The notes under the pieces: generated by a model
What the model was told of the DNA's origin: nothing
Databases searched by the model: none
What the model saw: the letters and a program-made list of their open reading frames with translations, nothing else
Translations under genes and position numbers: made by a program
From: Pseudomonas fluorescens NCIMB 11764
GTDB taxonomy: Bacteria; Pseudomonadota; Gammaproteobacteria; Pseudomonadales; Pseudomonadaceae
Length of the DNA stretch: 64,000 nt
NCBI RefSeq assembly: GCF_000293885.2
Contig: NZ_CP010945.1
Location: 248,001-312,000 of the forward strand
Reading direction: 5' to 3'
Shown: positions 23,595-60,934 of the stretch, in pieces
How the letters are laid out: every line of letters starts with the position of its first letter
Numbering within the stretch: the first letter of the stretch is position 1

Positions 23595-25479
23595 GGGCCG
23601 TAGCCTCCGCACTGATTGGGCTGGCGTATTCGGCTTTCAGTCGGCCGTCCTGGTCCAGGAGCCAGGCGTCCATGACCTGGCGCACCACCGGTGCGGCGAC
23701 GCCGGAACCGGACTCGCCGTTCTCGACCATCACCGACACCACGATTTGCGGGTTGTCGGCCGGCGCGAAGCCGACGAACAAAGCGTGGTCACGGTGACGT
23801 TCCTGAACCTTGGAGCGGTCGTACTTCTCACCCTGCTTGATCGCAACCACCTGGGCCGTACCACTTTTGCCGGCGATCCGGTATTGCGCGCCGATCGAGG
23901 CCTTGCGCGCGGTACCACGGGCGCCATGCATTACCTGCTGCATACCATGGTTGACCTTGGTCCAGTCGGACGGATCGCGCAGGATGATGTCCGGCATCGG
24001 ATTGTCATCTTTGGGCCGTTCGCCTTCGACGGTCTTGGCCAGGTGCGGACGGTTCCATACACCTTTGTTGGCCACCAGCGCCGTGGCCTGGGCCAGTTGC
24101 AGCGGCGTGGATTGCATGTAGCCCTGGCCGATCCCGAGAATCAGTGTTTCGCCCGGGAACCAGGCCTGACGACGGGTCGCGCGCTTCCACTCACGGGACG
24201 GCATCAGCCCCGGCGACTCTTCGAACATGTCCAGGGAGACCTTCTGGCCGATGCCGAACTTGCCCATGTAGGCCGACAGGCGATCAATCCCCAGCTTGTG
24301 CGCCAGGTCATAGAAGTAGGTGTCGTTGGACCGCATGATCGCCGTGTCCAGGTCGACATAGCCGTCACCGGTACGGTTCCAGTTACGGTATTTGTGGTCG
24401 TAGTTGGGCAGTTGGTAGTAACCGGGGTCGAAGACCCGGGTCGACGCCGTGACCACGCCCGAATCCAGACCGGCAATCGCCACCGCCGGCTTGATGGTCG
24501 AACCCGGCGGGTACAGACCACGCAGCACGCGGTTGAACAGCGGCCGGTCGATGGAGTCGCGCAACTCGGAATAGGCTTTGAAGCTGATGCCGGTGACGAA
24601 CAGGTTGGGGTCGAAACTCGGCTGACTGACCATTGCCAGTACTTCGCCGGTTTTCGGGTCCAGCGCTACCACCGCGCCACGGCGACCGCCGAGCGCTGCT
24701 TCGGCGGCTTCCTGCAATTTGATGTCCAGGCTCAGGACGATGTCCTTGCCGGGAATCGGATCGGTACGCTTGAGCACCCGCAATACGCGGCCTCGCGCGT
24801 TGGTTTCGACTTCTTCGTAACCCACCTGACCGTGCAACTCGGGCTCGTAGAAGCGCTCGATGCCGGTCTTGCCGATGTGGTGGGTGCCGCTGTAATTGAC
24901 CGGATCGAGGGACTTCAGCTCCTTCTCGTTGATCCGCCCCATGTAACCCACCGAGTGCGCAAAGTGCGCGCCCTGTGGGTAATGCCGCACCAGTTGCGCA
25001 ACCACTTCAACTCCCGGCAAACGGAACTGGTTCACGGCGATGCGGGCGATCTGTTCTTCGGTCAGCTCGAACAGAATCGGCACCGGCTCGAATGGCCGTC
25101 GCCCCTGGCGCATGCGTTTCTCGAAGATCACCCGATCCTCGGGCGTCAGCTCCAGCACTTCGACGATCACATCGAGCACTTGCTGCCAGTCGCCGGAACG
25201 CTCGCGGGTCATGCTCAGGCTGAAGCTCGGCCGGTTGTCGGCCACCACCACGCCATTGCGGTCGAAGATCAGCCCACGGGTGGGCGGAATCGGCTGCACA
25301 TGGACGCGGTTGTTTTCCGACAGGGTCGAGTGGTACTCGTACTGAATCACCTGGAGGAAATACAGGCGCGCGATCAGCACGCCGATCAGCGCCACCACTG
25401 CAATTGCCCCGAACACGACGCGGCCACGCACCAGACGGGCGTCTTTTTCGTGGTCCTTGATGCGGATCGGCTGGGGCAT
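23584..25479 (-). CDS. mrdA: Penicillin-binding protein 2 (transpeptidase)
   Basis: The elongation-specific class B PBP that cross-links glycan made by RodA. It has 631 residues. An N-terminal membrane anchor (about 18-38) and a pedestal domain come first. The transpeptidase domain follows, with SxxK in PPGSTIKPAVA (about residue 326), and KSGTAQV (about residue 536). MRSNDTYFYDLAH carries the SxN motif. It lies between rlmH and rodA. The P. aeruginosa name is pbpA. Confidence 0.97.
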   Translation of the reverse strand: MPQPIRIKDHEKDARLVRGRVVFGAIAVVALIGVLIARLYFLQVIQYEYHSTLSENNRVHVQPIPPTRGLIFDRNGVVVADNRPSFSLSMTRERSGDWQQVLDVIVEVLELTPEDRVIFEKRMRQGRRPFEPVPILFELTEEQIARIAVNQFRLPGVEVVAQLVRHYPQGAHFAHSVGYMGRINEKELKSLDPVNYSGTHHIGKTGIERFYEPELHGQVGYEEVETNARGRVLRVLKRTDPIPGKDIVLSLDIKLQEAAEAALGGRRGAVVALDPKTGEVLAMVSQPSFDPNLFVTGISFKAYSELRDSIDRPLFNRVLRGLYPPGSTIKPAVAIAGLDSGVVTASTRVFDPGYYQLPNYDHKYRNWNRTGDGYVDLDTAIMRSNDTYFYDLAHKLGIDRLSAYMGKFGIGQKVSLDMFEESPGLMPSREWKRATRRQAWFPGETLILGIGQGYMQSTPLQLAQATALVANKGVWNRPHLAKTVEGERPKDDNPMPDIILRDPSDWTKVNHGMQQVMHGARGTARKASIGAQYRIAGKSGTAQVVAIKQGEKYDRSKVQERHRDHALFVGFAPADNPQIVVSVMVENGESGSGVAAPVVRQVMDAWLLDQDGRLKAEYASPISAEATAREE

Positions 25480-50611: not shown

Positions 50612-51427
50612 TTATGGATAACTAAACCCCTTAACCAACGTCAACTCCCCCACCGCCCGCATCGGCACCAGAAAAGTCTCCATCTTCTCGTCCGGCGTCC
50701 CCTCCTCCGTAATCACCGTCACCTGCGCCGTGGTCAGCGGTTGAACCGCATTTTCCTGCCCGTCCTCATCACTGCGATACCCGCCCCCGAAGTAATTCAC
50801 ATACACCAAATACTGCCCCTTGATCGGCGCTGGCATGGCAAAAATTTCCGGGCCATACCCCGTCGTCACGTCCACATCCAGCGCCGCACCATTCGCCACA
50901 ACCCGGTCGCCATACCAGATGTGCGCGCCATCGGGCGTGACGAGGTGCAAGTCCAGATCCGTACCGTCGCTGTCCCAGGCCAGTAACACGCGCAATTTCG
51001 CCGGGGTGGCGCCGCCACTGGTATTGAGAAATTGCGTGCGGTGGCGCTGCTGGCCATCGGGGCTGCGGACTTCGACGCTGTTGCTGCCGTTGGGGAAGGA
51101 GAACGGTCGATCGAAGCGGCCAGCGGAGTCGATCTTCAGCGGCATGCTGACGCCGTTGACGATCAATCGGCCGGGTTCAGTGGACTTGGGTGTGGCTTTG
51201 ATCTGGCCGGTGATGCGTGCGGTGTTGGCCTGTCCTGCCGGCGTGTTCACCGAGGAAGCCGGGTAGTTGACAGTCTGGCGGAAGTTTTCGCCTTCGCCCT
51301 CGACTGCACCGGTGCGCCAGCCGCCGACGGGGGTGTCGAGTTTGGCGGCGCTTTCAGCCGCGGAAACCGTCGGCAACATGCAAACAGAACAAAGGAACAG
51401 GAAGACCTGTGGATAACGGAGTTTCAT
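50612..51427 (-). CDS. magF: MagF-like DUF2135 (YfaP) secreted protein
   Basis: A 271-residue periplasmic protein with a signal peptide ending in TVSAAE near residue 24. Motifs: DTPVGGWR after the signal, NSVEVRSPDGQQRHRTQF in the middle, DLDLHLVTPDGAHIWYGDR with QYLVYVNYF of the DUF2135 beta domain, and a C-terminal ETFLVPMRAVGELTLVKGF. It is the last gene of the minus-strand mag/yfa operon and a clear paralogue of the first gene (59999). Symbol by comparison with P. aeruginosa magA-F. Biochemical role unknown. Confidence 0.8.
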   Translation of the reverse strand: MKLRYPQVFLFLCSVCMLPTVSAAESAAKLDTPVGGWRTGAVEGEGENFRQTVNYPASSVNTPAGQANTARITGQIKATPKSTEPGRLIVNGVSMPLKIDSAGRFDRPFSFPNGSNSVEVRSPDGQQRHRTQFLNTSGGATPAKLRVLLAWDSDGTDLDLHLVTPDGAHIWYGDRVVANGAALDVDVTTGYGPEIFAMPAPIKGQYLVYVNYFGGGYRSDEDGQENAVQPLTTAQVTVITEEGTPDEKMETFLVPMRAVGELTLVKGFSYP

Positions 51428-51430
51428 GGC

Positions 51431-53050
51431 CTATTCCAGCAAGAGGTGGCGGGCGAGCCCTTCAATGTAGGTTTCATCCTGGCCGTTGGGATGAGCTTCA
51501 AAAGCCAGGTGCAGGTATTCGTGGGTCAGGTCGAGGCGGTCTTGCAGCGACAGCACGCCGCGCACGTAGATGCGCTGACGCTCGCGGTCGACATAGGGGC
51601 GGCCGAAGGCGAGGCGACAGACGGCGAACGTGCTGACTTCGTTGTAGCCGACCTCGCTGTCCAATCGCGCACGCCAGCCGCGGCGTTGGGTTTGCAGCCA
51701 GTCTTGCGCGGCGGGCAGCACGTCGCAGGAGGCGACGGGGTTGTCCCAGCGGCTGAGGCTGGCGCGCGGGTAGGCGTGCAGCAGGATGGCGTCGTAGCGT
51801 TGGCCGGCGTTGGCTTGCTCGACGGCTTGTTGCCAGGAGAGTTTGTCCGGGCCGGGTTGGTCGGAGTGGTAGGTGACGGTGCTGCCGGCGAGGACGAGGT
51901 CGCTGGTCCACGCGGCGATGTTGCGTGATTCGGCGGTGGCCGGGCGTGGTGCGACCCGCTGGCGACTGCTGCTGTCGTCGATGCTCAGGCAGTCGCCGTG
52001 GCGGGTGGCGTTTTGCAGCAGGTAGGTGCGAATGGCGACGGCCAGGGCTTTGGCGGCTTCGGCGGGTTCAGGTTTGGCTTCCCGTTGCAGCACTCGGGCG
52101 ACGTATTCTTCGCGATCCAGACGGGCGACCAGATTGTCGCCCACCAAAAACAGCTCACCGTCGCTGTGAATATCCAGTTGATTGCCATTGGCGAATTCAA
52201 CGCGATAGTCGCCCTGCAAAGGCCCGGAAGACACAACCCTATCCCCCGCCAGAACGCGTCCAATCGGATAACGAGAAAACAAGCCGACTTCAACGCAGCG
52301 CCCCGCATCCAACGGCCAATCAACCGGCAACACCGACGCCAACGCCTGACCGTAATTGCGCAGAACCATCTGACTGGTCCCGCGCCCACCGGCCCAGATC
52401 GGCGTGCCATCCACGGTCCAACCGGCAAACCCACCCTGACGCGACGATGGATCGTGATCACCCAACCAGCTCCAGGTTTTCACCCGCAACCGGCTACCGA
52501 GTTCGCCGACGACATTGCCGTCAGCGGCATTCAACACCACATCAAGCAACACCCGCCGCGCCTGATCCTGTGCGGGCATCACGGCCAACATTCGCAGTAG
52601 TTCCACCACCGAAACCCGCGTGGATGGTTGCAACGAAGGCAAGTCCAGCAGCCACTCGGGCGCTTTCCGTGCCTGCCAATACGTGCGCCAACCTGTGCCG
52701 GAAATACCCAACCGAGCAGGCTCAAAATACAAACCGCAGGACTTCACCAGCGCCTGATCACGTTCGATCTTGCCGCCCGCGGTGCAACAATAAACTTCTT
52801 CTTTCGACTGCCCGCGACATTCATACGCCGGCTCTCGGGCACCGCTGTCCACCAGCCAGCCGTAGACAAACAACTTCCACACACTGCCCAACGGCGTCTG
52901 CAAAGCGTCGGGCAACGGCTCGCGAGAAATCACCTGAGTCGGGCTCAGCGCCAGCAATTCACCCTTGAAGCCCAGTCGCAACGGTTCGTCCTGCGCTGCC
53001 GCCAGCGCAGGGATCAAACACAGCAGCCACCAGACCAAACGTCGGGTCAT
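51431..53050 (-). CDS. magE: MagE-like DUF2300 (YfaQ) protein, PBP-like + SpoIID-like + HExxH
   Basis: A 539-residue secreted protein with signal MTRRLVWWLLCLIPALAAAQ. Residues 30-250 carry penicillin-binding-like motifs in order: SVWK at 56-59 (SxxK), SCG at 104-106 and KTW at 191-193. Residues 310-430 resemble SpoIID: EEYVARVLQREAKPEPAEA (E324) and KALAVAIRTYLL. The end has HEYLHLAFEAH at 510-520, an HExxHxxxxxH metal-type motif, with D525-E526. Each match is by eye. The ATG is 1 bp after the magD stop. It may act on peptidoglycan beside MagD. Confidence 0.8.
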   Translation of the reverse strand: MTRRLVWWLLCLIPALAAAQDEPLRLGFKGELLALSPTQVISREPLPDALQTPLGSVWKLFVYGWLVDSGAREPAYECRGQSKEEVYCCTAGGKIERDQALVKSCGLYFEPARLGISGTGWRTYWQARKAPEWLLDLPSLQPSTRVSVVELLRMLAVMPAQDQARRVLLDVVLNAADGNVVGELGSRLRVKTWSWLGDHDPSSRQGGFAGWTVDGTPIWAGGRGTSQMVLRNYGQALASVLPVDWPLDAGRCVEVGLFSRYPIGRVLAGDRVVSSGPLQGDYRVEFANGNQLDIHSDGELFLVGDNLVARLDREEYVARVLQREAKPEPAEAAKALAVAIRTYLLQNATRHGDCLSIDDSSSRQRVAPRPATAESRNIAAWTSDLVLAGSTVTYHSDQPGPDKLSWQQAVEQANAGQRYDAILLHAYPRASLSRWDNPVASCDVLPAAQDWLQTQRRGWRARLDSEVGYNEVSTFAVCRLAFGRPYVDRERQRIYVRGVLSLQDRLDLTHEYLHLAFEAHPNGQDETYIEGLARHLLLE

Positions 53051-53051
53051 G

Positions 53052-56000
53052 TCAGTTGACCGTGACCTGACCCAGCGCCGGTTTCTGTTCCAGAGCCTGA
53101 TGCTGTGGCGCGTAGACCTGAGTGAAACGCACTGGCGGCAGGTTGAACTGGCCTTTCTGCGAGAAGCGCACCAGATGACGCAGCCGCAATTCACCACTCA
53201 AGGCGTCCACCGGAATCGCGTAAGCCATCTGACCCGGTTCGAAGCGCGCCTTCTCCAGCGCAGTCGGTTCAGTACCGGCCTTGCCCATCAATTTGATGCC
53301 CCACGTGGTGCGCTCGACATCCGCGCCCGGCGGCAGAGGCACTTCGATCATCCCGTAACGCAGCGGCTTGGCGGCTTTGCTGGTGATGATCACTTCGTCC
53401 AGATACAGGCTGTCGCTGGACAACGGCTTGCTGCCAACCGCTTCGAGTTTGAAGGTGAAGGCCGCGTCACCCGGCACCAGACGCGACAGCCGACGGGTGA
53501 TGGTCACGGCCATCGGATCAACCGGCGGTTGTTTAGTCTGGAAACTCAACGCTGCCCGCAACGGGCGCTCTTGCGTCCCGGTCAGCGACAACACTGCCGG
53601 TACGGGCGCAGCGCCCTGCCACGTCCAATACATCTCACCGGTATCACCGTAGTTTTTCTTCCAGCCGTCACCCGGTGCCAGTGCGATGGTGGGCGAAGCC
53701 TGCTCGATGCTGCGTTGCAACCAGGTCAGCGCCAACGCGCGCTCCAGGGTCGATTGCTGCGGCAACAGACGTTGCAACAAGGCTTGCGCGTGAGCCTGAT
53801 CGAAGGCTTGCAACGACAGGTTCAACGCTTCGGTAAACGGCTGGGAACTGACCGCCAGACGCTGTTGCGCATCGGCCAATTGACGATTGAAAGCATCGGG
53901 CAATGTCACCTTGGACTGACGAGCCAACGATGCCGTCAACGCACGCGCAGCCGCCAACCCGAGCGCCGAATCCGGATCACTCATGACGAGGCTGTCTTCG
54001 CCATCCTCCATCAGGTTCGCGGCGTTGCCCTCGCCCGCTTTCGCCAGATCATCCATCAAACCGCTGAGCAAGGTGTTCACCGGCAATTGCATCTGTTTGG
54101 CGAACGACAGGATCAGCGCTCTCTGCAACAGCGGCGTATTTTTGGCCTGTTTCGAATAGACCTCCAGCACCCGCTGCCAATGCTCCGGCGGCAGGCTCAG
54201 TTCCAAGGCTTTGCTGGCGTGCCAGTCGGCGTAATACGCGTAAGCCGTGAGAAACGCGTCCGGCTCACCGTCCATGCCCCACCAGGTGAAGCTCGCCGAA
54301 GGCCCGGCCATTTGCACCAGGCGCAGACGGCTGTTTTGCATGATCAACCGCAAGCGATCGCGGATCTGCGGGTTCGACGATAAGGTCGGGTACGCGATGC
54401 TCAACGGCAGCAAACGACTGGCCGTCTGCTCGACGCCGCCGTACGGATAGCTCAGCAAATCGTCGAGCGCCGAGCGGAACATCGCTTGCGGGCTGTCATC
54501 CAGCCGCAGGCGAATGTCCGTTGCGTCCACCGGCAAGGTCAGCGGCGTATCACCGCTGGCCACGTCCAGGCTTTGGCTTTGTGTGACCTGCCAGCCTTCG
54601 CCGGTCGCGGTCAGGCGCACGGCCAGCGCGTCAGCGGTTTTGCCGTCCTGCACCAGCTCGGCGGTCCACTCGCCCGTGGCCAAGTCGAACGCCGGCAACG
54701 CGATGTAGTTGATGCCGTTGTTCAGCGTCACCGGCACCCGCTGTTCGGCACCGGCGAAATGAATCACCAGCTCAGCCTTGACCGGTTTGTCCGCCTGGCT
54801 GAAGGCGAACACACCGAGATCCGGCTTGTCGCCCGTACGGAATTTGCTCGGGCCGCTCCACTTCAGGTACAGCGGTTTTTCCGAGCGCACGAATTGCTTT
54901 TTCTGCCCGACCTGACCGTCATCGGCGATGGCTCGCGCGGTGATGCGCCAGCGGGTCAGCGAGTCCGGCATCTTGAAGGTGAAGCGGGTTTTGCCGTTGG
55001 CGTCGGTGATCAATTCCGGCTGCCATGCGGCGGTGTCGACGTCTTCACGACGTGGCCGCTCCAGCACTTTCACCCCGCGCTCGCTGCGGTTGGCTTTGCC
55101 CGGTGCACCGGGGCTACCCGGCAACGCGACGTCGTAGCTGATGAACGACAGACTGGCGCTGGTGCGCACGTTGTTGCGGCGCGGGTGGTAGAAGAACTGG
55201 TCGATGGTCGGCGCGACTTCCGGTTGCAGCGCGTAGACCATTTCGTCGACCACGCTGACCGTCAGGTGCGCCGGAATCGGCTCGCCGGCGAATTGGGTGG
55301 TGAGGTCGACGGACACGGTATCGCCCGGTTGATAGGCCTCTTTATCGGTGGTGATAGCCACGTCGATCTGCGGCGCAATCACCTTGATGCCGGCGTTCTG
55401 GAAGCTGTATTGACCGCCCTTGGTGTACAGAACCGAGAACGTCAGGTTCGGCGCGAAATTGTCCTTCACCGGGATGCGTGCTCGGTATTGGGTGTCGCTG
55501 AGTTTTTCCATCTTCAGCCAGTCACCGCCCTTGGACAGCAGCGCAGTCGCCTCGACCTTGTCGCGCTCCAGCGACAGCAGTGCATCGCTGACGGGCTCCG
55601 GGAAAGTGATCAACGCAAGGGCTTCGTCGCCTGCCTTGTACTCGGGTTTGTCGAGGACGATTTCAACGGTGCCGGGCACGGCTTTGACGCCATCGCCGGT
55701 GACTGAATGGCCTGTGGCGCCGACCACGCGACCGTGGTCATCCTTCAAGGTCAGGTTGTAAGTGCCAGGACGCTCGAACGCCAGCGTGAAGCCCTTATCG
55801 GATGCGGCAAGTTTGCCTTCACCGGTGCTCTGATCTTCCAGACGCACCCAGCTGTAGCCGCTCGGCGTGACCGCTTTGCTCTGCTCGCTGCCACCTTCGT
55901 TGGCGTAGCTGAAAACAACCTTGTCACCCACCGCACTGAAGCGCTGCGGCGCCCGCAGACTGAAACTCGCGGCCCCCCGGTCGATGAGGATTTCCTTGGT

Positions 56001-57617
56001 GGTCCTGACCCGATACGCCGCACCATCGCTGGCGAAAACGGTGAGCATGTAGCGGCTCGGTTTCTCGGCGGCGGGCAGGTCGAGGGTCGCGTTGCCTTTG
56101 GCGTCGGTGGTCAATTCGGTACTGGTCAGTTCCACCGGGAATTGCCCGAGGTATTGCAGCTCGTTATCGACCATCGACAGTTGCTGGGCGCGCAGGCTCA
56201 GGGTCAGTTTGGCATTCGCGACGGGCTTGCCGTCCGGGTACAGCAGCACCAGGCTGCCTTTGACCGGCTCGCCGGTGCGGTAATCCTGCTTGGCCAGGTT
56301 CAACGAGATTTCGAAGTGCGGCTTGATGTATTCGGCAACCCGGAAAGCGCTGCTGTAGGCCTGGTCCTTGTAGCTGAAACGCAGTTCATAACCGCCGGCC
56401 ACGGCGTTATCCGGCAACTGGAATCGGCCTTGAGTGCCAGCCTTGGAATCAAGCTTCAGCGCCAGCGATTGCAGCGCGGTGCCGGTGGCATCGAGTACCG
56501 TCACGTTGACGTCGGCAGCGGTCGGTGCCACGGAATCCCGGGCGTTCTTGAACTCGCGACCGACGATTTTCAGCGACACCCAATCCCCCGGCCGATACAG
56601 CGGCCGGTCGGTGAAGGCATAGAGTTTGGTGTCGTAGATTTCGCTGTCGTAATAGAAGTTCTCGGAGACAAACACCCCGCCCTCTTCGTCCTCGCCGATC
56701 ACGAACGAACGCTCGGGGCTGACGTGTTTCAGTCGCAGCAAACCATCGGTATCGGTGGCGCCGCTGCTCATCACGCCGAGGCCATCGGTCCACAGCACAT
56801 TCACTTTCGGCACCGAACTGCCTTCATGTTTGCGCGCAGCCCACACCAGCAATTCATCACCGGCAATCTTGCTCACGGCCACGGTGTTGGAGACGAAGAC
56901 CATGGTGGTCGCTCGGTACTTGCCGATCAGCGCTTCCACCAGATACAGGCCCGGTTTCAGGTTGCCCAACGGGATGTACACGTTGCCTGGCGCGACAGTG
57001 ACGAACTCGCTGGACGAACCGGCCAGATTCACGCCTTCTGGCGGCTGGATCGGTTTGGCTTGCCACAGCGGATAACGGAACTGGCTGACCACCGGCAGGC
57101 CTGGAATCAGTGCGAATTGCGGCTGGGCGTCGTAAGGCGTTGGCGCGGCAATCGCGGTGCCCATCTTCAGTTCAGGCACTTCCTCGGTGACTTGTTTGCG
57201 CGACTCGTAGGAAAACGCCCGCTGCATCACGCGACGGGATTTTCGGTACCAGTTGTCCCACAGGTACGCGAGGGTGTTCGACAGACCTTCACCCTTGAAT
57301 TGACCGTCGCTGACCACGCGATGCAGGTTCTTCTGGCGCTTGAGGAAATCCAGCGGCTTGTCGATGCGATACACCCGAATGTCCGCGCCGCCGTAGGGCT
57401 CCATGCGGAAGCGGCGATAGTCACGGCCCGGCGCTTCGAGGCGCACCATTGCCTGCTCGTCACTGGCAAAACTGCTGTCCGCCAGCAGAAAAAAACTTTC
57501 ACCGGCCACCGGCGTGTAGCCGCTCGGCTCGACGGTATCTTCGGCGTTCACTGCCGAAAAAGGCAGGACCAACACCAACAATAGAGACAGAAAGCGCAGC
57601 ATGCGGGCACCGGTCAT
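53052..57617 (-). CDS. magD: Alpha-2-macroglobulin family protein (MagD/YfaS type)
   Basis: A 1521-residue periplasmic macroglobulin. The ATG at 57617 overlaps the magC stop as ATGA and starts signal [21 protein letters not shown]. Repeated MG (fibronectin-like) domains fill the N-terminal 900 residues, e.g. [18 protein letters not shown] and [18 protein letters not shown] strands. The region that carries CLEQ in thioester macroglobulins reads [11 protein letters not shown]; the cysteine position is glycine (G1061), so no thioester can form. That is typical of MagD/YfaS. In P. aeruginosa MagD associates with the other Mag proteins and PBP1b. A protease-trap or scaffold role is inferred. Confidence 0.92.
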
Positions 57618-58252
57618 TGGGAGAGAAAGTTCAGTCGATAGACGCCGATGAAGTTGGGGTTGGCTGCGTCGGGTATCCATCGGGTGTCCTTCCATGTCAT
57701 GAGTTGCTGCAGGCTCGCGGATCGCATGCCGTTGTCAGTGGGGGTGGTGGTGCCGGTGTGATAGGCGATGTAGCGGCCCATCCAGATCATCAGGTGCTGG
57801 TCGTCGCCCTGATCGAAAAACATCAGGTCGCCGGGCCGCGCTTGCGCCACGTCGCGGCCCACCAGATGGCTGTTGAACTGAATCAGTTTGATCGCGTTGA
57901 CGTAAGGCCCGACCTTGCCGCCGCCCTGCTGCCATTGCTGGGCGAGGCCGCGTTGGGCGTCGCTCAGTTGCAGCTCCGGCGGCAGGTAGCGGTTGGACAG
58001 GCCATTGCTGCGCAGCCATTTGTCGTCATGGACTTTCAGCGCTTCGTTGGCGGCAAAACGCACCAGCCCTGCGCAGTCCTGCTGATACCAGCGCGGGCTC
58101 GGGCCTTGGGTCAGTTGCTCCTGGGCGATGCGCACGAACCAGGCGCGAAACACCTGGGATTGCTGCGGGTCGAGCGGCGCGGCGTCACTGGCAAATGCGC
58201 GACTGCCGAGCAACATCGCCAGCAGGCCGAGGCCTCGGATAAGTGCGGTCAC
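57614..58252 (-). CDS. magC: MagC-like DUF1175 (YfaT) protein, NlpC/P60-like
   Basis: A 212-residue secreted protein. The start is set at GTG 58252, which overlaps the magB stop as GTGA and opens a signal peptide ([21 protein letters not shown]) behind GGAAGG. An ATG at 58264 is the alternative. The motifs resemble NlpC/P60 cysteine peptidases: [17 protein letters not shown] (C60), [22 protein letters not shown] (H153) and YIAYHTG. DUF1175 proteins have no assigned activity, so murein endopeptidase or amidase activity is an inference. It overlaps magD by 4 bp. Confidence 0.8.
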
Positions 58253-59961
58253 AGGGCCTTCCATTCCAGTGGCAGCCATTGCCAGTGGCCGTCGGGCTCG
58301 CTGCCTTCCGGCAACGTCAGCGCGTATTTTCCGTAGCCACCGAGCTTGCGCAGTTTCGGGATCAGGTAAGTTTGCGCGGCGTTATAGAACACCGGCTCCA
58401 TGTCCTGCGGCAGGCTGTCGAGGGTTTCCTGTTGCATCAGTTGCGCCATGGAATCCGGGCCGAAGTAGACCGGCATCAGCAGGTCTTTCGGCACCACGTC
58501 GGCCATCGGCGGGAAACGTTTGTCGAGGGTGCCGAGGGCTTTGTCCACCAGCTTGTCATCGAGGGAAAACAGCAGTGTCGAACCGTGGCGCGCCAGGCTG
58601 ACTTTCATGAAGGCCTTGCCGGTGATCGCGTCCGGGTTCTCGGCATCCTTGGCTTTGTAAGGGCCGAAGTTGGAGCTGACCTGACGCTGCCACTGGTGGT
58701 GTTCACCTTCCTGTTTTTCCACCACCGGGAACGCGTGTTCTTCGACGTTACCTTCGTAGGCGCCGACCATCGAACCGAAAAGGCTGCCCAGGTCGCCGTC
58801 GAGTTTGGCGCTGTCATCATCGTTCAGGCTGGCCACCAGCAGCGGCGTGTACAGCCGCGAATCGGCGTACCAGCAGAGGCCGGCAGCACCGGCCATGTGT
58901 TCGGTCAGGGCATGGGCCACGGTTTCTTCGGCGCCGAGTTTCACCAGCAACGGTTTCTGTTGTTCGGCGGCGAGCGGTAGCGCCACACAAGCGCTGGCCC
59001 CCATCGGCATGGCTTGCCAGATCGGTTTGAAATCGAAGTCCGGCTGGTTTTCCAGTTCGTCCATGGCGAGGAAGCTGTGCCAGCCCTTGTCGTCCATATC
59101 GAAACGCAGGCCGGCGAAGTTCGGGATGAAACGCTGGTAACCCATGGCCAGGACGCTGGAATTGACCGAGAGGCGTTGTTTCACTTCAGGGGCGCGGGGT
59201 GGCAGGCCGAAGGCTTCGGGGAACAGTTTCTGCCCGCCAAGCAGTGCTTCCAGCGATTCAGTCGAGACCATGCCGGGTTCATCGACCGGACCGTGGCCGG
59301 TCTCGTAGAGTTTGGCCGGGTTGGACAGCACCACCAGTTTGTCGCCATGGGAGGCGAACAGCAGCGCTTTGCTGTGGTTGTAGGTGAGCTGATAAAGCGG
59401 CACCACATCACCGCCGACCTTGATCTCACTGAGCTGGGTCAGCTGCGAATCATCCAGCGCCACTTTCGCCAGCGGCTCCAGCACTTTGGCCAGACCACCA
59501 CGATCCATCACCAACAAAAAGTCTTTCAGGCGGCCATCCGCCCCGCGCCACAACGCTACGTCCGCCGGTTGATCGAAAAGCTGTTCGATCAGGCTGTCCT
59601 GCAATTTCAGGTCATGTTCGTAGATGATCCGGCGCAGACTGCCGATCAAGCCAAGGCGATCGGCATGGGCTTCGTAATAGAAGACGAAATCTTCGGTGAG
59701 GGTTTCCTTGAGGAACGGCACCGCCAGCAAGTCTTTGGGCAACTGGCTCAAGGAGTGGGTTTCGAGCAGACCGTCCGGCCGGCTCATGCCCAGTTTATCG
59801 CTGGCCAACTCCGCCGGAGGCGCCTTGGGTTTGTGCATGAACCAGCCCAACCCGGCCGCGACACCGGCCACTAGGACCAGCCCGACCAGCAGCGCCGGCC
59901 AGCGGCGAGGAGTTTTGGCTGCAGGCGTTTCGGCGGCCGGAGAAACAGTGTTATCGCTCAT
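58249..59961 (-). CDS. magB: MagB-like DUF2138 (YfaA) membrane-anchored protein
   Basis: A 570-residue protein. A 20-residue cytoplasmic, Thr/Pro/Ala-rich start is followed by a single helix at about 20-42 ([22 protein letters not shown]). The large periplasmic domain matches DUF2138 ([40 protein letters not shown]). No catalytic motif was recognised. It may be the inner-membrane anchor of the Mag complex. The ATG at 59961 is the first that puts the membrane helix near the N-terminus. It starts 37 bp after magA. Confidence 0.82.
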
Positions 59962-59998
59962 GTTCACAAAACCCGATGTCATCCGTGGAGCGGGATGC

Positions 59999-60790
59999 TT
60001 AATAGTTGAAAGTCTTGACCAGCAGCAGGTCACCGATCGCGCGCAGGGGCACGATGAAGGTTTCGCGTTTTTCGTCGACGGTGTTTTCGTTGAGCACCAG
60101 ATTGATCTGCGAGGTGATCACCTCGTTCTGGTTGCTGGTCTCATCGAAGTTATAGCCGCCGCTGCCGAAGTTGCCCCAATAGTTCACGTAAACCAGATAG
60201 GTGCCATGCAGCGGCGCGGTCATGGTGAACATTTCCGGGCCGGGGCCATCGACGCCGTCCGGGTCCAGGCCTCCGCCGTTGCTCATCGCCGGGCGAGCCC
60301 AGAACGCATGCTGGCCGTCGGGGGTAACAATGTGCAGGTCGAGTTCAGCCTTCGGATCGTCCCAACCCAGCACCACGCGAATCCGCGCCGGGGTGCGCAG
60401 GTTATTGGCTTCGTAGAACTGAACGCGCTTGAGGGATTTGCCTTCGGCACTGCGCACTTCGACGCTATTGGAACCGGCGCCAAACGCGTACGGCCGGGCG
60501 AAACGTCCTTGGTCGTCGGTGTAGAGGTTCAATGGATTGCCGTTGACCGCCAGCGTGTGCGGCCCGCGTTGCGTGCCAATGGCCTTGAGCTCGCCCTGGA
60601 TCATCGTGCGATTGCGCTGCACGCCCCGGTCGATGGGCGGCGTGGGATAGGCCACTTGTGGGTTTTCGCTGCGATCGAGCAGGCCGTTGTAGCGCCAGCC
60701 GCCCACCGGCTCCGACAGCTCGGCCGCCGGCTCGGCGCAGGCAGCCGTCGCGCAGACCCACCCCATCAGGCATAGAAAAAATGAACGCAT
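59999..60790 (-). CDS. magA: MagA-like DUF2135 secreted protein
   Basis: A 263-residue protein with signal MRSFFLCLMGWVCATAACA. The ATG at 60790 has GGAGG 7 bp upstream. It shares with magF the order of motifs SEPVGGWR, NSVEVRSAEG, ELDLHIVTPDGQHAFW, GTYLVYVNYWG and ETFIVPLRAIGDLLLVKTF, so the two arose by duplication. It is the first gene of the operon. Symbol by comparison with P. aeruginosa, where the order magA-F corresponds to PA4492-PA4487. Confidence 0.8.
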   Translation of the reverse strand: MRSFFLCLMGWVCATAACAEPAAELSEPVGGWRYNGLLDRSENPQVAYPTPPIDRGVQRNRTMIQGELKAIGTQRGPHTLAVNGNPLNLYTDDQGRFARPYAFGAGSNSVEVRSAEGKSLKRVQFYEANNLRTPARIRVVLGWDDPKAELDLHIVTPDGQHAFWARPAMSNGGGLDPDGVDGPGPEMFTMTAPLHGTYLVYVNYWGNFGSGGYNFDETSNQNEVITSQINLVLNENTVDEKRETFIVPLRAIGDLLLVKTFNY

Positions 60791-60934
60791 GTGACGCCTC
60801 CTGCCATGCATAACGAAACCTTGCGCCTGATCCTCGGCGCGTTACAGATCCAAAAACTGCGTTTCGTCAGAAAGACCCGTGACTATTGGGTCGTAGAAGC
60901 CGCGAAGGTTAGCCATTTGGAGGATTTTTAACAA

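Follow-up and report, generated by a model that had tools for sequence, protein, structure and literature searches.

The 64,000 nucleotides of Pseudomonas fluorescens DNA analysed here (the window) include a gene, magE/yfaQ, whose product had been given a preliminary description as a three-part, peptidoglycan-directed protein; this raises the question whether a transpeptidase-like, a SpoIID-like and a metallopeptidase-like part are indeed joined in one polypeptide, and what such a protein would do beside a macroglobulin. The first two folds were borne out, and the third, metallopeptidase-like fold is moderately supported; the part that had been taken for a C-terminal end is the core of the protein. 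The transpeptidase-like and SpoIID-like parts of Escherichia coli YfaQ have been in print since 2025 (PMC12282094); the protein is called bipartite there, and the available part of the main text names neither a metallopeptidase part nor core-only forms. No account of the metallopeptidase part of YfaQ/MagE was found in the literature searched, which for PMC12282094 comprised main-text passages; measured against that same literature, domain 3, its predicted conserved ligand set, its stand-alone life, its co-occurrence with MagB and the fact that the "tandem" label misleads (see below) are apparently new.

Gene and operon context

The minus-strand frame 53050..51431 runs from ATG to stop and a single gene fills the interval; the plus-strand reading of 51431..53050 in the matching frame is interrupted by stops. 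According to Pfam, magE is the fifth of six minus-strand genes encoding, in this order, DUF2135, DUF2138, DUF1175, macroglobulin, MagE and DUF2135 proteins (Table 1). MagC gave a weak NlpC/P60 match (Pfam, E 9e-4, under the cut-off), and its DCAGLV stretch resembles the NlpC/P60 catalytic motif; the operon may therefore also encode a cysteine peptidase. The macroglobulin neighbourhood had been recognised correctly: magD, with MG2, bait region and A2M domains (Pfam), adjoins magE, which lies between magD and magF with magC and magB alongside. This place is shared with P. aeruginosa MagE (PMC5764988) and E. coli YfaQ (PMC12282094), and the six-gene order is that described for the P. aeruginosa mag operon (PMC5764988). 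E. coli YfaQ shares the MagE motifs, and a signal peptide has been predicted for it (PMC12282094). In E. coli K-12 MG1655 (L026, L107), yfaA-yfaT-yfaS-yfaQ-yfaP reproduce the order of the window without its first gene; yfaS is annotated as a pseudogene, yfaQ, yfaT, yfaA and yfaP are not.

Table 1. Positions of magE, its predicted domains and motifs, and the neighbouring genes in the window.
Feature	Position	Strand	Basis
magE/yfaQ (P0001), 539 aa	51431..53050	minus	ORF and translation; Pfam DUF2300 (two stretches) and SpoIID
MagE residues 1-19, putative Sec-type signal peptide	52994..53050	minus	by eye: RR, hydrophobic core, ALAAA
Domain 1, residues ~20-245, serine beta-lactamase/BlaR1-sensor/PBP fold	52316..52993	minus	
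S56-V-W-K59 (SxxK)	52874..52885	minus	S56 308/309, K59 307/309
S104-C-G106 (SxN position)	52733..52741	minus	SxN register from non-significant class A PBP profile alignment
K191-T-W193 (KTG position)	52472..52480	minus	KTG register from non-significant class A PBP profile alignment
Domain 2, residues 248-437, SpoIID/SleC lytic-transglycosylase fold	51740..52309	minus	
E324, counterpart of C. difficile SpoIID E101	52079..52081	minus	profile alignment to 5txu; 309/309
Domain 3, residues ~440-539, predicted minimal gluzincin-like metallopeptidase	51434..51733	minus	AlphaFold2, Foldseek, VIA-align, stand-alone relatives
H510-E-Y-L-H514 (HExxH)	51509..51523	minus	H510, E511, H514 309/309 and 90/90
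E526-x3-E530, candidate third metal ligand	51461..51475	minus	E526 309/309, E530 308/309; both 90/90
magF/yfaP, DUF2135	50612..51427	minus	Pfam
magD/yfaS, type II macroglobulin (MG2, bait region, A2M domains)	53052..57695	minus	Pfam
magC/yfaT, DUF1175, weakly NlpC/P60-like	57614..58279	minus	Pfam
magB/yfaA, DUF2138	58249..60033	minus	Pfam; start codon provisional
magA-like, DUF2135	59999..60811	minus	Pfam

The SxxK and SpoIID folds

Conservation was assessed in 309 long forms (303 distinct, strongly Pseudomonas-weighted), made up of the 236 proteins with a length of 500-660 aa in a set of 242, and of 73 of the 80 loci from a scan of genome contigs, all 80 from Pseudomonas; a more diverse set held 90 rows, 29 of them without domains 1 and 2. 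The motifs singled out in the preliminary description were all found in MagE (S56-V-W-K59, S104-C-G106, K191-T-W193, E314-EYVARVLQR-E324...KALAVAIRTY, H510-EYLH514...H520), and the residues it had named are conserved among the long forms: E324, H510, E511 and H514 are invariant (309/309), as are S104, G106, K191, T192, E526, C442 and C478, followed by S56 (308/309), K59 (307/309), C105 (308/309), E530 (308/309) and H520 (301/309). The same residues are retained in four long forms that are more distant from the MagE of the window (44-66% identity). In the diverse set, H510, E511, H514, E526, E530, C442 and C478 were present in 90/90 rows and H520 in 80/90.

The folds of domains 1 and 2 are assigned with near certainty. 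Domain 1 has the common fold of serine penicillin-recognising enzymes (PBP/beta-lactamase/BlaR1 sensor); of the PBP-like motif series attributed to it, the SxxK motif held together with the fold, whereas SxN (or YxN, SxV) and KTG were not found. Position 193 is occupied by W in 221, Y in 84 and F in 4 of the 309 long forms, and never by G. As a result of SCG standing for SxN and KT[WYF] for KTG, an ordinary transpeptidase activity of this domain is doubtful. The same residues set MagE apart from the class D beta-lactamases and BlaR1 sensors (1nrf, 1xa7, OXA enzymes), to which domain 1 is 9-16% identical. The SxxK fold did not emerge from sequence alone: when profiles were compared with those of PBPs and of two class-D-like proteins from other genomes, none of the probabilities reached significance (0.04, 0.09 and 0.5%), and the PDB single-sequence search with P0001 gave no match at E up to 10. 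The best profile alignment (class A PBPs) placed SVWK on SxxK, SCG on SxN and KTW on KTG; being non-significant, it is usable for the motif register only.

The SpoIID-like region that had been read from its motifs was confirmed by Pfam (PF08486, E 2.1e-7, 31.9 bits, cut-off 23), by the fold and by the location of E324 on the catalytic Glu position; the NCBIfam model SpoIID_LytB scored 23.5 bits, under its cut-off of 83.3. Residues 248-437 of MagE have the fold and catalytic Glu position in common with the SpoIID/SleC lytic transglycosylases, from which MagE differs by the junction with two other domains. In C. difficile, SpoIID depends on prior action of the amidase SpoIIP (PMC6221140).

The domain 3 core and its occurrence

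One Pfam model (DUF2300, PF10062) matches MagE at residues 80-201 and again at 402-522. A "tandem DUF2300" repeat, as in the RefSeq name of YfaQ, was considered and rejected: comparison of residues 70-215 with 390-539 gave a profile probability of 0.4%, and the folds are different. The C-terminal match breaks off within the presumed metal site, at residue 522 and thus short of E526 and E530; together with a "tandem" name laid over two unrelated folds, this may explain why domain 3 was overlooked.

The AlphaFold2 model of residues 429-539 was compared by Foldseek and VIA-align (with the zincin families listed there): the best structural matches were the minigluzincins (selecase, abylysin, jannalysin) and IrrE/M78, at moderate similarity. 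Like these, the modelled domain 3 comprises ~100 aa and has a HExxH helix with a Glu-bearing helix after it; it differs from them by its predicted export, its invariant cysteine pair and its link to a macroglobulin operon. In the predicted structure, the long helix that comes after the HExxH helix carries E526 and E530, and the gap from H514 (12 or 16) falls below the 20-60 stated in PMC3356374. Of the metal-type motif HEYLHLAFEAH claimed for this region, HExxH stood in both sample sets (309/309, 90/90), but the extended reading HExxHxxxxxH fails at H520, since this residue is Tyr in E. coli and Tyr, Phe or Ser in other rows. A metzincin site (HExxHxxGxxH) was rejected: there is no Gly at that position, and H520 is replaced by Y, F or S in 10/90 rows. 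A variable H520 next to invariant or nearly invariant E526 and E530 makes the site look like that of a gluzincin and not of a metzincin. Based on the model, domain 3 probably has a zinc-peptidase fold, and an active peptidase appears somewhat more plausible than an inactive one; that it is a true zinc peptidase, with metal binding, peptidase activity and a substrate, and that MagE binds peptidoglycan, is what we infer. By sequence, the PDB offered no credible relative of domain 3 (the top angiogenin rows apparently reflect chance; selecase E 1.4). For M56, the family of the BlaR1/MecR1 membrane protease, there was no match of P0001 in Pfam at E up to 1, nor was it one of the 19 families to which 57 domain-3 members gave matches.

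In a phylum draw of 398 genomes, in which DUF2300 was counted over its cut-off, 15 carried DUF2300 and the identical 15 carried DUF2138 (MagB); a sixteenth DUF2300 match was under the cut-off and stop-interrupted. Nine of the 15 mag-bearing genomes encode a long MagE, always with domain 3; the other six, judged to belong to class Magnetococcia, have domain 3 only, as a small predicted-secreted protein in MagE's place. A search of that class found the core in these six of 48 genomes; of 369 genomes drawn from the window's class, only the genome of the window itself and G461, with a core-only form, gave a match. A hydrophobic leader was recognised by a script rule in 4/5 scored Magnetococcia core-only forms, P0247 falling short of the rule. 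A DUF2135-like gene directly follows the core in 7/7 core-only loci, recognised in two by Pfam and in the other five by its position and end motif; all five loci whose contig extends further have a macroglobulin-sized gene immediately before the core. No SpoIID match was found in the seven core-only genomes (G125 being 78% complete); in each of the five long-form genomes included in this comparison, the sole SpoIID match was MagE.

The domain 3 tree (68 rows, 105 columns, unrooted, with many forks unresolved and silent on which form is older) needs three changes between long and short forms, at least two of which are forced by well-supported branches. Serratia P0274, with 135 aa consisting of leader and domain 3, forms a long branch inside the long forms; this nested position suggests that domains 1 and 2 were lost there. 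Domain 3 is the conserved core of MagE and no appendage: it is the only MagE part present in all 15 mag-bearing genomes, six of which, like one additional genome, have it standing alone. As the core occurs without domains 1 and 2, peptidoglycan may or may not be its target.

Possible role of MagE

Tentatively, at slightly less than even chances, we favour an exported three-domain MagE with a gluzincin-type zinc metallopeptidase core of ~100 residues that serves proteolysis within the Mag system. The putative zinc would be held by H510, H514 and E526 or E530, with E511 as base; the SxxK-fold and SpoIID-fold domains of the gamma- and betaproteobacterial forms would most likely dock the core on peptidoglycan or sense it, and the most likely task would be a maturation or activation cut in MagD, or the clearing of proteins at the wall. 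MagD itself as the substrate is conceivable but rather doubtful. A P. aeruginosa magE mutant showed higher-mass MagD forms, taken by the authors for unprocessed precursor; they considered MagE cytoplasmic on the basis of earlier work and proposed a chaperone or signal-peptide role, and they saw no stable MagD-MagE complex (PMC5764988). The missing complex is compatible with an enzyme-substrate contact, which need not be stable, and the predicted leader on MagE argues for export. According to PMC12282094, deletion of yfaQ in E. coli yields wider cells with a profile resembling that of mepS, mepK and nlpI deletions; the widening counts against a role in MagD processing alone, with the proviso that yfaS, a pseudogene in MG1655, may not be one in the deletion strain. 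Both the MagD effect and the widening are compatible with a peptidase that domains 1 and 2 direct to the wall region, and equally leave room for enzymes acting on the wall itself.

In that alternative, which is the view of the preliminary description, all three domains of MagE would act on peptidoglycan (as penicillin-binding/DD-peptidase-like enzyme, lytic transglycosylase and metallo-endopeptidase), as the folds of domains 1 and 2, the alignment of E324 with the catalytic E101 of SpoIID, the deletion phenotype of yfaQ and its likeness to mepS, mepK and nlpI (PMC12282094), and the weakly NlpC/P60-like MagC would lead one to expect; yet the SxN and KTG motifs are altered, seven genomes retain the operon although domain 3 is all they have of MagE and a SpoIID match is absent, and loss of magE affects MagD (PMC5764988), so that it is possible but on the whole unlikely. 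The published suggestion, by which MagE would serve the export of MagD as chaperone or docking protein and its enzyme-like domains would be binding relics, accounts for the presumed MagD precursor in the magE mutant (PMC5764988) and for the partly altered motifs of the SxxK domain; it is improbable in view of the invariance of E324, H510, E511, H514 and E526 (309/309), which would be needless in binding relics, and of the leaders on long and core-only forms, which point to the periplasm. Equally poor prospects, or slightly worse, attach to a protease-trap pair in which MagD restrains the MagE peptidase, MagE being the inhibited partner and not the processing enzyme of MagD: MagD does trap a target protease (PMC5764988), and the macroglobulin adjoins the peptidase-like domain in long and core-only operons alike, but a stable MagD-MagE complex was not seen in the same study, and E. 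coli K-12 retains yfaQ next to the yfaS pseudogene.

The favoured peptidase reading can be extended by comparison with BlaR1, in which an SxxK domain is likewise joined to a gluzincin (a predicted one in MagE); BlaR1 structures are among the matches listed for either end of MagE. BlaR1 is a membrane protein with N-terminal protease and without SpoIID, in contrast to MagE with its reverse order and absent M56 match in Pfam; since order, topology and sequence differ, the relation is one of analogy, not membership. By this analogy, MagE might be a soluble exported BlaR1 counterpart, in which a PBP-type domain reading the state of peptidoglycan is connected via a glycan-binding SpoIID fold to a minimal zinc protease, and the latter would mature or fire the adjacent macroglobulin, the protease being universal in type II macroglobulin operons and the wall modules optional; this is a speculative and rather improbable proposal. 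A constant, minimal peptidase-like domain bears on the processing of type II bacterial macroglobulins and on the roles of the partner genes: E511 would be the single decisive residue, and the core-only protein is a natural version of ~100 residues that can be made alone.

Two minor observations concern wall-related genes. A PBP with transpeptidase domain (PF00905, E 4e-76) is encoded at 23668-24678 (minus) of the window, ~27 kb from magE. In one Magnetococcia genome (G069, L113:15393-16484), the protein in MagF position carries, in addition to DUF2135, a lysozyme-inhibitor LprI domain (PF07007, E 4e-7), a further tie of the operon to wall-degrading enzymes.
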